DNA from: Nitrososphaerota archaeon
GTDB taxonomy: Archaea > Thermoproteota > Nitrososphaeria > Nitrososphaerales > Nitrosopumilaceae
Length of the DNA: 64,000 nt
Assembly (NCBI GenBank): GCA_005877205.1
Contig: VBPL01000038.1
Coordinates: 1 to 64,000, forward strand
Direction: 5' to 3'
The translations under genes were made by a program, and so were the position numbers. Numbering within the stretch: the stretch's first letter is position 1; every line of letters begins with the position of its first letter. Of this stretch, positions 30,510 through 36,806 are shown piece by piece. The notes under the pieces are model-generated. The model saw only the letters and a list, made by a program, of their open reading frames with translations. It ran no database searches and was not told where the DNA came from.

Positions 30510-31559
30510 ATGAAAGCAGTTGTTTACGAAAAATATGCGCCAAATGATGACTACAAATCAATTCTAAAAGTTAAAGAAGTGGATGATCCAAAACCAAAAC
30601 CCAACGAAGTCGTCTTTAGAGTAAAAGCTACTGCACTTAACTACAACGATATCTGGGGAATGAGAGGACAACCGATTCCAGTTCCTTTACCTCACATTTC
30701 AGGATCAGACGCAGCAGGTGAAGTCATAGCAGTAGGAGCTGACGTTACTAGTTTCAAGATAGGTGATAAAGTTGTTTCACATTCAAACATGTCATGCAGA
30801 GTTTGTCAAGCGTGCACTGATGGACGCGAATATGATTGTATCAAGAGGACCATTTGGGGATTCCAAACAGGACCACTATGGGGTGCCTTCTCCGAAATCA
30901 CTCATTTGCCAGAGGTAAACGTTGCAAAAATTCCAGAAGGTGTAAGTTATGATGACGCAGCAGCAGCTTCAATGACTCTGTTGACTGCTTGGCATATGCT
31001 GGTAGGAAGAGCAAGGATTCGTCCGGGTCAAACCGTACTTATCATGGGAGGAGGTTCAGGTGTTGGCAGCTTTGGAATTCAAATAGCAAAACTCTATAAC
31101 TGTACTGTGATTGCAACTGCAAGCCCTGACAAACTAGACAAACTAAAGCAGGCAGGTGCTGATTATGCAGTAGATCACAGAAAAGAAGACTGGAGCAAAG
31201 AAGTAAGAGAAATTGCAAAACCACTAGGTGGTATCGACATTTCATTTGATCATATTGGACAAACCCACTGGAATGCTCAGCTTACTCTGCTGAAATATGG
31301 TGGAACGCTTGTCACGTGTGGAGCAACCACGGGATATGACGCCAAGACCGATTTGAGACACATTTTCTTCAAAGGAACAAACATCTTGGGTTCAACACAG
31401 GGAACAAAGGCAGAATTAGAACAGGGCCTATACTGGATGGGCAAAAAGAAGATAAAAGCTGTAATAGATTCTGTACATAGCTTTGAAAATGCTGCAGAAG
31501 CACATACTAAGATGCTAACGGGTAAAGGAATGTTCGGCAAAATCTTAATGAAACCATAA
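30510..31559 (+). CDS. Zinc-binding MDR-family alcohol dehydrogenase/enoyl reductase
   Basis: A 349-residue NAD(P)-dependent medium-chain dehydrogenase. The N-terminal GroES-like domain has the structural-zinc cysteines in SCRVCQACTDGREYDC (about 92-107), and the Rossmann part has GGGSGVGSFGIQIAK (about 181-195). The catalytic zinc site is incomplete (NYNDIWG instead of C-x-D/S-x-H), which favours reduction of enoyl or quinone substrates over alcohol oxidation. A crotonyl- or acryloyl-CoA reductase role in carbon fixation is possible, not shown. Confidence 0.82.
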   Translation: MKAVVYEKYAPNDDYKSILKVKEVDDPKPKPNEVVFRVKATALNYNDIWGMRGQPIPVPLPHISGSDAAGEVIAVGADVTSFKIGDKVVSHSNMSCRVCQACTDGREYDCIKRTIWGFQTGPLWGAFSEITHLPEVNVAKIPEGVSYDDAAAASMTLLTAWHMLVGRARIRPGQTVLIMGGGSGVGSFGIQIAKLYNCTVIATASPDKLDKLKQAGADYAVDHRKEDWSKEVREIAKPLGGIDISFDHIGQTHWNAQLTLLKYGGTLVTCGATTGYDAKTDLRHIFFKGTNILGSTQGTKAELEQGLYWMGKKKIKAVIDSVHSFENAAEAHTKMLTGKGMFGKILMKP

Positions 31560-31572
31560 ACCCACTCATTTT

Positions 31573-32430
31573 ATGGCAAGACTCTTACGAAGTCTTCTAT
31601 TTGTTCCTGGAAATAATGCACGATTCTTAGAAAAAGCTAAAACCCTTGCTGCTGACATTATTTGTTTTGATTTGGAAGACGCGGTACCTTTTGAAGAAAA
31701 AAAATCAGCTAGAAATCTAATCAAAAATGCATTGACAGACCGTCCTCAATACAAAGCTGAAGTTTATGTAAGAACAAACTCTCTTGCGTCTGGCATGATT
31801 CCAGATGATTTAGCAGAAATTATTCAGAAAGGAACTGATGGAATAGTAATTCCCAAGGTCAATGATGCAAACGAAATAACAAAAATGGAAAGGATTTTGG
31901 CAAGTTTAGAAAAGAAACGAAAATTGAAACCTACAGAACTTATCCCGTCAATAGAATCTGCAACAGGTGTTGTCAATGCGTATAATATTGCATCAGCCAG
32001 TAAAAGAGTGTCAGCTCTTGTTTTTGGTGTGTTTGACTTGCTCAATGACTTGGGAGTAGAATACACAAAACAAGCAGATGGTGCACGATACGCAAGATCT
32101 AAGATTCCTATAGACGCAAAAGCAGCAGGAAAATATGCTATAGATGCAATCTGGCAGGACCTAAACGATACGAAAGGGCTTGAACAAGACTGCCTTACAG
32201 CTAAGAATTTAGGATATGTGGGCAAAAGTGTCATTCATCCTGACCAGATCAAGACCGTACATAGCGTATTCCATCCTACTCTATCTGAGATAGAATGGGC
32301 AAAAAGGGTCATTGAGGCATATTCTTCAGCAAAAGTTACAAAAAAGGGTGCAACCACAGTAGATGGTAAAATGATAGACGAAGTTCACTTCAAGAGAGCC
32401 AAGACCCTGATTGATTCAACTCCTTCTTAA
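31573..32430 (+). CDS. HpcH/HpaI-CitE family CoA-ester lyase
   Basis: A 285-residue TIM-barrel lyase similar to citrate lyase beta, malyl-CoA lyase and citramalyl-CoA lyase. The start LLRSLLFVPGNNARF and the metal/substrate residues in CFDLEDAVP (about 32-40), PSIESATGVVNA and GVFDLLNDLG are typical. It starts 13 nt after the dehydrogenase gene, so the two are probably co-transcribed. The exact acyl-CoA substrate is unknown. Confidence 0.85.
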   Translation: MARLLRSLLFVPGNNARFLEKAKTLAADIICFDLEDAVPFEEKKSARNLIKNALTDRPQYKAEVYVRTNSLASGMIPDDLAEIIQKGTDGIVIPKVNDANEITKMERILASLEKKRKLKPTELIPSIESATGVVNAYNIASASKRVSALVFGVFDLLNDLGVEYTKQADGARYARSKIPIDAKAAGKYAIDAIWQDLNDTKGLEQDCLTAKNLGYVGKSVIHPDQIKTVHSVFHPTLSEIEWAKRVIEAYSSAKVTKKGATTVDGKMIDEVHFKRAKTLIDSTPS

Positions 32431-32474: not shown

Positions 32475-33065
32475 ATGTTTACTGGAATTATTGAAGGCCT
32501 TGGTAATGTTGTGAAATTTGATAAAAAAACAAAAAATCGTAGTGCAGCCAAAATGCAAATAAATCTAGGCAAATTTGCAAAAGATCTCAGAGTGGGAGGC
32601 AGCGTAGCAATAAATGGTGTTTGTCTTACTGCAGTCAGAATAACAAAGGGAATAGCTGAATTTGAGATGGTGGGAGAAACAATCAAGAAAACGAATCTTG
32701 GACACTTGAAAAATGGTGATAAAGTGAACATAGAAAGAAGTCTGAAGATTGGTGACAGACTAGAGGGACATTTCGTACTAGGACACGTCGATGGTGTAGG
32801 TATAGTTGTTAAAATAGAAAAACAACCAAACCAAGTAAAGATCTGGATCGAAACAGCAAATGAACTATCAAAACACATAATCAGGAAAGGATCCGTAACA
32901 ATAGATGGAATAAGTCTGACAGTTGTTGATGTGTTTAAAAATAAATTTTCCGTTTCAATAATACCACATACAATCAGAGTAACAAATCTCAGATTCAAGA
33001 AAATTGGCGATAAAGTTAATATTGAAACCGACATTCTTGGAAAGTACGTCATGTCTGAAAGCTAA
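32475..33065 (+). CDS. ribE: Riboflavin synthase, bacterial-type alpha chain
   Basis: Dismutates two 6,7-dimethyl-8-ribityllumazine molecules to riboflavin. The protein begins MFTGIIEGLG and has the two tandem lumazine-binding barrels (about 1-97 and 98-190), each with a GxVxxxGxxL-type motif. This is the bacterial/eukaryal type and unlike the archaeal pentameric synthase of methanogens, so its presence suggests an old gene acquisition. It opens the riboflavin cluster, 72 nt before ribB. Confidence 0.95.
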   Translation: MFTGIIEGLGNVVKFDKKTKNRSAAKMQINLGKFAKDLRVGGSVAINGVCLTAVRITKGIAEFEMVGETIKKTNLGHLKNGDKVNIERSLKIGDRLEGHFVLGHVDGVGIVVKIEKQPNQVKIWIETANELSKHIIRKGSVTIDGISLTVVDVFKNKFSVSIIPHTIRVTNLRFKKIGDKVNIETDILGKYVMSES

Positions 33066-33080
33066 AAACCTACTACTTTT

Positions 33081-33094
33081 TTGGTAATTACCAA
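33081..33094. promoter_or_regulatory. 14-bp palindrome upstream of ribB promoter
   Basis: TTGGTAATTACCAA is fully self-complementary. It lies just before the TATA candidate TTTATAAT (33108-33115) for the ribB ATG at 33138. The position suits a regulator that controls ribB and the four genes after it; archaeal riboflavin regulators of the RbkR type bind palindromes, but I cannot match the motif here. Confidence 0.45.
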
Positions 33095-33137
33095 TTTTCT
33101 AGTAAGATTTATAATTATACGAACAAGCTGATTACGC

Positions 33138-33818
33138 ATGTCCTTACAAGAGGCAATTTCTTCGCTTAGAAAAGGAGATTTTATCTTACTTCATGACGAA
33201 AGCACACGAGAAAATGAGGTCGATATGGTAGTTGCTGCGGACTTGGTAACACCAGAACACATTTCGCGTATGCGTCAAGATGCAGGCGGCTTGATATGCC
33301 TATCAATAAATTATACGTTTGCTACAAGCCTGGGTTTAAACTACATGCACGACATACTATTCAATTCCCAAAATATGGACGTGGATTCAAAAAGGATGAT
33401 TATTGGCACCGCCCCATACGGAGACAGACCATCATTTTCAATCTCTATCAACCATATGAGCACCTTCACTGGCATAACAGATAGAGACAGAGCCTTCACT
33501 ATGTCAGAAATGGCCCGTTTGTACAAAAACGGAAGCAAGAACAAGAAAGAAGTTTTCAATTCCGCGTTTAAAACACCTGGACATGTCCCACTTCTTATTG
33601 CATCAGAAGGTTTGTTGTCAAATAGACTGGGTCATACGGAAATGTCAGTTTATCTGACAACTCTTGCGGGACTTTCTCCAGTAGCAGCTATCTGTGAAAT
33701 GTTGGATTCTGAAACATATACTGCATTATCTATTGAAAAAGCAAAAAAATATGCACAAGAAAACGCCATCCCATATTTCGATGGCGGTGAACTTGTAAAA
33801 TTCGCCAAGGAGCATTAA
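33138..33818 (+). CDS. ribB: 3,4-dihydroxy-2-butanone-4-phosphate synthase
   Basis: Makes the four-carbon unit for lumazine from ribulose 5-phosphate. The acid loop HDESTRENEVD (about 19-29) and RMRQDAGGLIC are the catalytic signatures, and residues in GHTEMSVYLT complete the site. 226 residues matches the stand-alone archaeal enzyme. Only 2 nt separate it from ribH. Confidence 0.95.
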   Translation: MSLQEAISSLRKGDFILLHDESTRENEVDMVVAADLVTPEHISRMRQDAGGLICLSINYTFATSLGLNYMHDILFNSQNMDVDSKRMIIGTAPYGDRPSFSISINHMSTFTGITDRDRAFTMSEMARLYKNGSKNKKEVFNSAFKTPGHVPLLIASEGLLSNRLGHTEMSVYLTTLAGLSPVAAICEMLDSETYTALSIEKAKKYAQENAIPYFDGGELVKFAKEH

Positions 33819-33820
33819 TT

Positions 33821-34231
33821 TTGAACATTGCAATTGTAGTCTCGGAATTCAACAGGGAAGTAACTTCAAAAATGCTAGACGTTGCAATTGAGAAGGCAAA
33901 GACGCTCAAAATGAATGTAAAATATACTTGTAAGGTACCCGGCGTGTTTGATATGCCACTTGTAATTGATAGATTGCTGAGGAAAAATGATGTTGATGCC
34001 GTGGTGACTCTGGGTGCGGTAATTAAGGGACATACAAAACATGATGATCTTATTGCCAATGCTACTGCAAGCGCTCTGATCGAGCTATCAATAAAGTATC
34101 AAAAGCCGGTAACATTGGGTATTTCAGGTCCCGGGATGAGTGATAGACAGGCGCACCAGAGAATAAGACCTGTTGCTGAAAGAGCAGTAGAGGCCATTCA
34201 GAAGATTAGTGAAGAATTGAGGAAGATATAA
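33821..34231 (+). CDS. ribH: 6,7-dimethyl-8-ribityllumazine synthase
   Basis: Joins the dihydroxybutanone phosphate with the ribitylamino-pyrimidine to give lumazine. Motifs: the N-terminal VVSEFNREVT (phosphate and ring binding), VPGVFDMP, and GAVIKGHTKHDD with the catalytic histidine. 136 residues is typical of archaeal enzymes. TTG start; one base separates it from the GTP cyclohydrolase III gene. Confidence 0.95.
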   Translation: MNIAIVVSEFNREVTSKMLDVAIEKAKTLKMNVKYTCKVPGVFDMPLVIDRLLRKNDVDAVVTLGAVIKGHTKHDDLIANATASALIELSIKYQKPVTLGISGPGMSDRQAHQRIRPVAERAVEAIQKISEELRKI

Positions 34232-34232
34232 G

Positions 34233-34985
34233 GTGATTCAGCTCACGATAATTAAGATCACAGGATACGGTCCATGGACACTTACACTAGGTAGTGACAG
34301 AGAACATAGGCTGCAAATTCTACAAGCATCATTATATAAAGAAATACAAAATCTCTTTTCCGAAAAAAACTGTCTTGCCTTTCCAAATCGATTTGATGAA
34401 ATTTTTGTTATAACAAATGGCCTTTCAGTTAATGATCATGTTGAAATTCAAGAGCAATTAGCAAAATCTTTCCAGTTAGGTCTGTCAATGTCTATAGGAC
34501 AGGGAAGAACACCATATGAAGCAAACTTGAATGCAGATAAAGCAAGAAGATCTAAAATTATTTTAGGCAAATATCGCAACATTTTCGGATTACCATTGAA
34601 AAAGGAAGAAGATTTGGTACAGATAATCCACATGGATGTTGATGGGTCTACCTCTATTTCGGCAAGCAAGTCTCCTTATGATGTTTCATCACTAATTCTC
34701 AAATTGTATTCTAATATGTCAGATTTTTTCCTGTCGAAAAACTCTCTTGCGTTTTTTATGGGAGGAGACAATTTTATGATAATTAGCTCGGATATTGACA
34801 AGGAAAGCATATCAAAGTTTCTTGATTTAGTAAGACGTCAACATGGAGTATCCTTTAACTGTGGAATTGGAACAGCAAAGACTAGTAGAGATGCTGCCAA
34901 ACTGGCAACTAAATCTCTTGATAGAATACGAGAACTTAGAGACTCTGGCAAAAAAGAGCAACGAATACTTGAATTAACATGCTGA
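34233..34985 (+). CDS. gch3: GTP cyclohydrolase III (archaeal type)
   Basis: Opens GTP to the formamidopyrimidine (FAPy) intermediate, the first step of the archaeal riboflavin route. The 250-residue protein begins with the ITGYGPWT motif and contains two related halves with the metal-binding HMDVDGSTS and the GGDNFM motif of nucleotidyl-cyclase-like folds. GTG start. It overlaps the following amidohydrolase gene by 7 nt. Confidence 0.92.
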   Translation: MIQLTIIKITGYGPWTLTLGSDREHRLQILQASLYKEIQNLFSEKNCLAFPNRFDEIFVITNGLSVNDHVEIQEQLAKSFQLGLSMSIGQGRTPYEANLNADKARRSKIILGKYRNIFGLPLKKEEDLVQIIHMDVDGSTSISASKSPYDVSSLILKLYSNMSDFFLSKNSLAFFMGGDNFMIISSDIDKESISKFLDLVRRQHGVSFNCGIGTAKTSRDAAKLATKSLDRIRELRDSGKKEQRILELTC

Positions 34986-36169
34986 TAAGAAATGTCAGCC
35001 TTCTTTTGGGTCAAGAACTGGATTACGTTAACACCATATGTGTACGTATTTCAGACAAATACATTGAGACTATAGGAAAGAACCTTCAAGCCAAAAAAGG
35101 CGAGGAGGTGATAGATTGTGAAGGCCTTCTAATGATACCTGGCTTAATTAATGCACACACACATGTTGGGGATTCTATTGCTAAAGATATCAGTATAGAC
35201 ACAGATATTGAGGCTAAGATTCATCCAGTAAGAGGTCTCAAACAAAAAATTCTCAAGAATTCAGACACGTCACATCTTACCAGCTTCATTCGTAGTTCAT
35301 GTCTTTCAATGATTAGAAAGGGAATAACTACACTCATTGATTTTCGAGAAGGGGGTATTGAGGGTATCAATATACTTCGGAGAGCATCATCTGGGATTCC
35401 AATAAGACCTGTTATTCTAGGCAGGGTGGAATTCTACCAAGATTTTAAATCGATCAAGGCAAATTCTCCAATCCCAGAATCAAAAAATTCAGATTTCGAA
35501 AATCTACTAAGAAATTGTGATGGAGTTGGAATTAGCGGACCCAACGAATTCAGTGATTCTGCTCTAAGATACTTCTCAAAACATAAGAAAATTCGTGCAA
35601 TACATTCGGCAGAAACCGAAGAAAGTAATGCAATATCTGAAAAGCTAACAAGTAAGAGTGAGACTCGTAGAGCACTTCTTGCAAAGCCAGACTTTCTAGT
35701 GCACATGACTTATGCTTCTAAACAAGATCTACAACTAGTATCTAAAAATAAAGCTAGTATTGTAGTCTGTCCGCGAGCAAATGGTGCTCTAGCAGAAGGC
35801 ATTCCAAATGTGAATCTCATGTTAGAAGCAGGATGCAATGTTGCTATCGGAACAGATAATGTGATGATAAATTCTCCAGACATGTTCAAAGAGATGGATT
35901 ATCTTTGGAAGATTTCTATGGGAATGAAGAAGAAAAGATTGTCTCCAAAATCTATATTGAAGATGTCTACCGTAAACGCTTCTGTTCTTTTAGGTGGTAA
36001 GGTAGGAATTATTCAAGCCAGTAATATTGCAGACTGCATCTTTATGGAGAAGCATGCAATAGATTTGGAACCAATGCATAATCCTCATGCATCAATTGTG
36101 CATCGTGCCTCAGAGAGTACAGTAAGAGCTGTAATGTTCGAAGGAGAAATAATTCATGGCAAAATCTAG
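34979..36169 (+). CDS. Deaminase-type amidohydrolase in the riboflavin operon
   Basis: A 396-residue metal-dependent hydrolase of the ATZ/TRZ-cytosine deaminase group. Metal and catalytic residues are H60 and H62 (NAHTH), H209 and E212 (HSAE), H242 (VHMTYAS) and D293 (GTDN), the pattern of mononuclear aminohydrolases; CPRANGAL near 264-271 is also typical. It is translationally coupled on both sides, 7 nt overlap with GTP cyclohydrolase III and 14 nt overlap with the ArfC reductase. Those neighbours make the reactions just before it in the pathway, so deamination of the ribityl-diaminopyrimidinone phosphate is the best inferred role; FAPy deformylation is the alternative. Confidence 0.8.
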   Translation: MLIRNVSLLLGQELDYVNTICVRISDKYIETIGKNLQAKKGEEVIDCEGLLMIPGLINAHTHVGDSIAKDISIDTDIEAKIHPVRGLKQKILKNSDTSHLTSFIRSSCLSMIRKGITTLIDFREGGIEGINILRRASSGIPIRPVILGRVEFYQDFKSIKANSPIPESKNSDFENLLRNCDGVGISGPNEFSDSALRYFSKHKKIRAIHSAETEESNAISEKLTSKSETRRALLAKPDFLVHMTYASKQDLQLVSKNKASIVVCPRANGALAEGIPNVNLMLEAGCNVAIGTDNVMINSPDMFKEMDYLWKISMGMKKKRLSPKSILKMSTVNASVLLGGKVGIIQASNIADCIFMEKHAIDLEPMHNPHASIVHRASESTVRAVMFEGEIIHGKI

Positions 36170-36806
36170 ACCGTATATCATACTTAGTGCAGCCATGAGT
36201 ATAGATGGAAAGATAGCAAGCCGTTCAGGAGATTCCAAGCTTTCATCAAAAAAGGATCTAGTACGTCTTCACAGACTGAGACGAAATATGGATGCTATAC
36301 TTGTTGGAAGAAACACTATTGCTGTTGACGATCCATTGTTGACTGTAAGGCATGTACAAGGAAAGAATCCAATTCGCGTAATCTTGGATTCAAGAGGAGC
36401 CATTGCTAAAAGTTCCAAAATCATAAAAACGGCAAGTAAAATTCCTACAATACTAGTGGTAACCGAGAAGGCTCCGAAAACCTTGGAGAAACTTACTAAG
36501 AAGAAAGTTGAAGTAATAAGGTGTGGACAAGATAAAATTGATCTAAAGAGATTGTTGAGGATCCTTCTAAAAAAAAGAATCAACAAGATTCTCTTAGAAG
36601 GCGGTGGAATAACCAACTGGTATTTCATAAAGGAAAAATTAATCGATGAACTTATCCTTACAGTTACGCCCTATGTACTAGGAGGCAAGGATGCTATCTC
36701 ACTGGTACAGGGCAATGGCTTTGATAAGATATCAAAATCTTCATCATTCAAACTAAAGAATGTGAAAAGAATGAAAAATGAGATAATTCTTTACTATGGT
36801 TCTTAA
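36156..36806 (+). CDS. arfC: 2,5-diamino-6-ribosylamino-pyrimidinone phosphate reductase (ArfC/RibD-reductase type)
   Basis: Reduces the ribosyl side chain of the pyrimidine intermediate to ribityl with NADPH. The dihydrofolate-reductase-like fold shows in SAAMSIDGKIA (about 11-21), DAILVGRNTIAVDDP (46-60) and LLEGGGITNWYF (about 147-158). At 216 residues it is the stand-alone reductase, without the RibD deaminase domain, which leaves the deaminase step to another protein. Its 3' end overlaps the convergent tfe gene by 4 nt. Confidence 0.92.
   Translation: MAKSRPYIILSAAMSIDGKIASRSGDSKLSSKKDLVRLHRLRRNMDAILVGRNTIAVDDPLLTVRHVQGKNPIRVILDSRGAIAKSSKIIKTASKIPTILVVTEKAPKTLEKLTKKKVEVIRCGQDKIDLKRLLRILLKKRINKILLEGGGITNWYFIKEKLIDELILTVTPYVLGGKDAISLVQGNGFDKISKSSSFKLKNVKRMKNEIILYYGS

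Follow-up and report, generated by a model that had tools for sequence, protein, structure and literature searches.

An amidohydrolase-superfamily protein as the proposed deaminase of archaeal riboflavin synthesis, encoded within a thaumarchaeal rib gene run

We analyzed a 64,000-nucleotide stretch of DNA from an ammonia-oxidizing Nitrososphaerota archaeon (contig VBPL01000038.1, here the window) and propose that one of its genes, whose product we call X, very probably encodes the deaminase of archaeal riboflavin synthesis, with substrate, reaction order and activity predicted from the sequence. On this assignment, the archaeal enzyme for the deamination step would very probably come from the amidohydrolase superfamily and have no relation to the CDA-fold RibD of bacteria and fungi, which would make it a non-orthologous solution with charged substrate-binding residues of its own (K88, R266 and R376). 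The deamination role had been put forward in a first-pass annotation of this DNA, and it is supported by gene neighborhood, co-occurrence with arfC, active-site residues and the lack of a RibD deaminase, the activity itself being a prediction. The window thus presents an operon-embedded version of the archaeal deaminase candidate, for a step whose intermediate also feeds F420.

The riboflavin gene run and its upstream element

The genes on the plus strand follow the order ribE-ribB-ribH-arfA-X-arfC, after which comes a TFE gene on the opposite strand (Table 1). The ATG of X at 34979 lies inside arfA, which ends at 34985, giving an overlap of 7 nt, and the stop codon of X, ending at 36169, lies beyond the arfC ATG at 36156, giving an overlap of 14 nt. 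These open reading frames and overlaps had been given exactly in the first-pass annotation, and the single run of X with ribB, ribH, arfA and arfC that it described holds, with the gene names backed by domain and equivalog searches; ribE and the palindrome and TATA-like element upstream of ribB are additions to it. In the Nitrosopumilaceae lineage, the overlaps of X with arfA and arfC suggest coupled translation. Genes for a zinc-type alcohol dehydrogenase and a CitE-like lyase precede ribE (window positions 30510-32430), a position kept in several relatives, down to ∼60% and ∼50% identity.

Table 1. Features of the riboflavin gene run and codons of selected residues of X (window coordinates)
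Feature	Position	Strand	Evidence
ribE, riboflavin synthase, bacterial (lumazine-binding) type	32475-33065	+	TIGR00187, 219.4 bits (cut-off 156.6)
Conserved intergenic element, ribE-ribB gap	33072-33115	+	Alignment of ten same-genus loci
ribB	33138-33818	+	TIGR00506, 202.1 bits (cut-off 177.45)
ribH, 6,7-dimethyl-8-ribityllumazine synthase, TTG start	33821-34231	+	TIGR00114, 134.5 bits (cut-off 84.6)
arfA, GTP cyclohydrolase III, GTG start	34233-34985	+	GCH_III PF05165, 1.3e-53
X, amidohydrolase-superfamily aminohydrolase, 396 aa; proposed 2,5-diamino-6-ribitylamino-4(3H)-pyrimidinone 5'-phosphate deaminase	34979-36169	+	NCBIfam PRK07213 (MJ0699 family); Amidohydro_1, 4.8e-37
H60-T61-H62, metal-binding HxH motif	35156-35164	+	H60, H62 invariant in alignments A1 and A2
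H209-S-A-E212, metal ligand and Glu typical of aminohydrolase deaminases	35603-35614	+	H209, E212 invariant in A1 and A2
H242, catalytic/metal His	35702-35704	+	Invariant
C264-P-R266-A-N268, family-specific CPR[AS]N	35768-35782	+	R266 position differs in DadD-type relatives
D293-N294, catalytic Asp and N294	35855-35860	+	N294 invariant; Gly in nearly all DadD-type relatives read
arfC, 2,5-diamino-6-ribosylamino-pyrimidinone 5'-phosphate reductase	36156-36806	+	TIGR01508, 196.3 bits (cut-off 186.45)

The gap between ribE and ribB holds a perfect 14-bp palindrome, TTGGTAATTACCAA (33081-33094), followed by the TATA-like TTTATAA and accompanied by flanking repeats; the palindrome and the TATA-like box are conserved across the ten aligned same-genus loci. 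With up to two mismatches allowed, the palindrome has a single match in the window; at this tolerance, chance alone would give 0.55 matches. We regard this element as a candidate promoter/operator of ribB-ribH-arfA-X-arfC, and our guess is that the archaeal regulator RbkR might bind the palindrome, which would make it a candidate RbkR operator.

Family, active-site residues and phylogeny

X is a member of the NCBIfam family NF005552/PRK07213, named "chlorohydrolase" (329.5 bits, cut-off 294). This is the sole curated family whose cut-off it passes among the matches listed, where the next families reach at most 120 bits against cut-offs of 391-617. The ArfB/creatininase model NF033501 is absent among the best 25 of the 49 NCBIfam matches. 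In Pfam, X matches Amidohydro_1 and Amidohydro_3 only; the search returned no PF00383 (RibD/CDA-fold) domain and, at E ≤ 0.001, no PF02633 (creatininase/ArfB) match. The NCBI name of the family is probably wrong. Because the nearest solved structures are those of purine-nucleoside enzymes (MTA/SAH deaminases) or s-triazine hydrolases, the substrate we propose for X is deduced rather than transferred by homology; a single-sequence AlphaFold2 model of X, at a mean pLDDT of 33.7, is uninformative.

The same family has been proposed before for archaeal riboflavin synthesis. Its Methanocaldococcus protein scores 559 bits, and in Methanocaldococcus sp. SG1 the PRK07213 gene lies six places from hmgA, with MscS, priL, DP1, a small ORF and a hisA-like gene in between. 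As hmgA is MJ0705 in Methanocaldococcus jannaschii (PMC6616113), MJ0699 belongs to the PRK07213 family, a placement made by this gene-order count in sp. SG1 and not from the MJ0699 sequence. Pfeiffer 2021 (PMC8305020) counted three gaps in haloarchaeal riboflavin synthesis, for two of which Rodionova 2017 had supplied candidates; those tabulated are HVO_1235 for ArfB and HVO_2483, which is marked "also predicted for MJ0699," and the third gap is the phosphatase EC 3.1.3.104. Since the other two gaps are ArfB and the phosphatase, HVO_2483/MJ0699 would by elimination from that table be the Rodionova 2017 deaminase candidate. The first-pass annotation knew of no well-established archaeal enzyme for this step. 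We likewise found no proven one, but a candidate of the same family had been nominated in 2017 (PMC8305020), so that the hypothesis raised for X arrives independently at a prediction already in print. The archaeal deaminase was still a prediction only in the 2021 annotation review (PMC8305020), and the passages searched in a 2026 riboflavin review name no archaeal enzyme for the deamination step. An experimental test of the activity of the X family was not found in the literature searched, most subscription journals lying outside that search.

X carries the full HxH, H, HxxE, H, D set of aminohydrolase deaminases (COG0402-like). The residues that had been singled out as deaminase-type (H60, H62, H209, E212, H242 and D293) are all present; a 34-row alignment of the family shows them invariant, together with P54, D65, K88, E124, N268, G291 and N294, and R266 and R376 nearly so. 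Beyond the catalytic set, D65, K88, E124 and N294, along with the nearly invariant R266, are taken as specific to this family. We infer that the contacts to the phosphate or the ring carbonyl come from K88, R266 and R376. DadD/MTA/SAH-type relatives have the catalytic set in common with X, but they carry Met or Gly at the D65 position, other residues at that of R266 and Gly (once Cys) at that of N294. For K88 and E124, two alignments with the DadD-type proteins disagree, one showing E and a gap and the other different residues, and the contrasts are therefore limited to D65, R266 and N294. Likewise, the MTA/SAH and 5'-deoxyadenosine deaminases 3LNP, 4GBD and TM0936 (1P1M/2PLM) share the HxH, H, HxxE, H, D chemistry with X, whereas they are without D65, CPRxN and DN and fall into a separate clade. 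In a maximum-likelihood tree, a branch with 100/100 support divides the 43 riboflavin-type from the 11 DadD-type proteins, and methanogens have one riboflavin-type protein of the X family and one separate DadD (MTA/SAH-type) deaminase. The residue signature thus separates X from look-alike deaminases, and the genome list shows where it is present or missing. Members of family f24 (L173, L174, L228-L231 and L259-L261) are shorter, at ∼350 aa, read NPR[AS]N for CPR[AS]N and score well under the PRK07213 cut-off; their residue signature is intact, and they do not adjoin the arfA-arfC-ribB cluster.

Gene neighborhood and co-occurrence with arfC

The proposal that X should recur next to arfC or ribB in other thaumarchaea was borne out, and the pattern extends well beyond them. 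The loci compared came from the genus, the order and the phylum of this archaeon, with a further set from other Thermoproteota families. X is present in 25 of the 25 sampled genomes of its family, always beside rib genes, and all 67 amidohydrolase ORFs (67/67, duplicate loci included) adjoin arfC and/or arfA-ribH-ribB. The X-rib arrangement is not due to chance, because it recurs in all 67; the rib-linked ORFs include proteins only 25 to 28% identical to the X of the window. Gene order varies among families, with ribB-ribH-arfA-X in f32, arfC-X or X-arfC in f44 and f40, arfA-X in f43, arfC-arfA-ribB-ribH-X in f30 and, in f19, a divergent arrangement. No X match was obtained in four genomes of this archaeon's order (G027, G030, G033 and G037). 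Homologues linked to other pathways, which would count against the proposal, were not seen for the X subfamily. In methanogens, f24 and f35, no rib genes lie near X within the stretches read, so that the link there rests on co-occurrence. The MJ0699/HVO_2483 family thus resembles X in family, invariant residues and proposed job and differs from it in that X is inside a rib run with overlaps on both sides, whereas the methanogen loci read are unlinked; the gene context of X is stronger than the one the methanogen genes give.

Co-occurrence was assessed in one sample of 151 Thermoproteota genomes, searched for PRK07213 and ArfC; doubtful genomes went through a second search, with a wider profile of the family, and were checked against the residue signature, and those with neither gene were judged mostly from the PRK07213 search alone. 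Both genes are found in 62 genomes, X without arfC in 1, arfC without X in 11 and neither in 77, so that 62 of the 63 X-bearing genomes have arfC (Fisher p ∼1e-29 by genome; at the level of taxonomic families, 12/16 versus 0/20, p = 1.5e-6; both statistics ignore shared ancestry). G105 holds a divergent, borderline member of the X family. The single-contig genome G115 has a clear member (L258) and no ArfC match, and its sampled genus mates have both. The 11 genomes with an ArfC-like protein and no X (G085, G121, G187, G087, G159, G110, G122, G158, G176, G143 and G188) therefore have another deaminase or incomplete pathways. Heterotrophic marine thaumarchaea are reported to be devoid of ribBD, ribE and ribH (PMC7300363), and X would be expected to be absent from them as well.

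Predicted reaction and alternative functions

In the pathway as we envisage it, ArfA would open GTP, a separate formamidase would deformylate the product and ArfC would reduce the ribosyl to the ribityl chain. X would then replace the 2-amino group of 2,5-diamino-6-ribitylamino-4(3H)-pyrimidinone 5'-phosphate by a carbonyl. By analogy with known amidohydrolase chemistry, H242 and D293 would activate a water bound to the metal and E212 would shuttle the proton; this water would attack C2, and ammonia would leave. A phosphatase and then RibH and RibE would complete the riboflavin pathway, and the same X step would also supply F420 precursor synthesis.

The bacterial RibD deaminase domain and its fungal counterpart at this step are CDA-fold zinc deaminases. 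The same net chemistry and pathway stage are expected of them as of X, which belongs to a different Pfam family. X is ordinary in its family and not in its role. A RibD-like deaminase elsewhere in the genome would have weakened the case for X; the search for a RibD-type enzyme in its own genome returned a single PF00383 match, a ComEB/dCMP-deaminase-like protein (L001:1363-1917, contig C85), and a RibD-like enzyme for the step was rejected on this ground. The L001 protein also matches a model for anti-phage dCTP deaminases, but its 91 bits fall far short of the cut-off of 400. Nearly every genome sampled from the family Nitrosopumilaceae has just one PF00383 protein, and no PF00383 match was found in the single-contig genomes G099 and G117 or in the controls M. 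jannaschii and Sulfolobus acidocaldarius. As G099 and G117, which have arfA, arfC, ribB, ribH and X, and both controls are without a PF00383 match, a RibD-type deaminase can be missing entirely from archaea that have the pathway.

The alternative that survives best, although it is unlikely, is that X acts before ArfC, on 2,5-diamino-6-ribosylamino-pyrimidinone 5'-phosphate, as in the bacterial order. The position of the X gene between arfA and arfC would fit this reading, but gene order alone cannot give the order of reactions. According to the 2026 review, which cites Graupner 2002, reduction precedes deamination in archaea, yeasts and filamentous fungi, and the reductase encoded here passes the archaeal equivalog cut-off.

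We consider it still less probable that X is the FAPy deformylase, taking the ArfB function in place of a creatininase-family enzyme, a fallback that the first-pass annotation had also ranked below deamination. As it had noted, the run contains no arfB, and the creatininase-family protein found elsewhere in the genome (L187:1486-2214, contig C46), a candidate ArfB, scores 45 bits against an ArfB equivalog cut-off of 180, so that the thaumarchaeal deformylase is a candidate only. Against a deformylase role stand the aminohydrolase/deaminase kind of the residues of X, with E212 invariant, and the presence of exactly one creatininase-family gene in each of the 25 family genomes. Moreover, M. jannaschii has a characterized iron-dependent ArfB (Grochowski 2009) in addition to its MJ0699-family member, which is therefore not needed for deformylation there. 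ArfB of M. jannaschii and BrbF of Sinorhizobium meliloti are, like the proposed X, hydrolases of this pathway, but they belong to the creatininase family (PF02633), of which the genome of X holds its separate member. The creatininase gene of this genome and a purU-like formyltetrahydrofolate deformylase gene have 4 nt in common.

That X is an SAH, MTA or 5'-deoxyadenosine deaminase sitting in the operon by chance is very improbable. The kinship to MTA/SAH deaminases and s-triazine hydrolases among solved structures speaks for it, but X stays far under the cut-offs of the corresponding families (PRK08393, 120.5 of 617 bits; PRK07228, 97.6 of 522; PRK15493, 62 of 779), the methanogens hold X beside a phylogenetically separate DadD-type paralogue, the genome of X already carries an adenosylhomocysteinase, and a housekeeping SAH enzyme is not expected to track arfC. 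Just as improbable is a house-cleaning role on damaged or off-pathway pyrimidines, with an unrecognized enzyme doing the main deamination: the 11 arfC-bearing genomes without X would fit it, but X is universal in the sampled family, in most loci its gene overlaps those of arfA and arfC, and neither the run nor the family search yielded another deaminase candidate.
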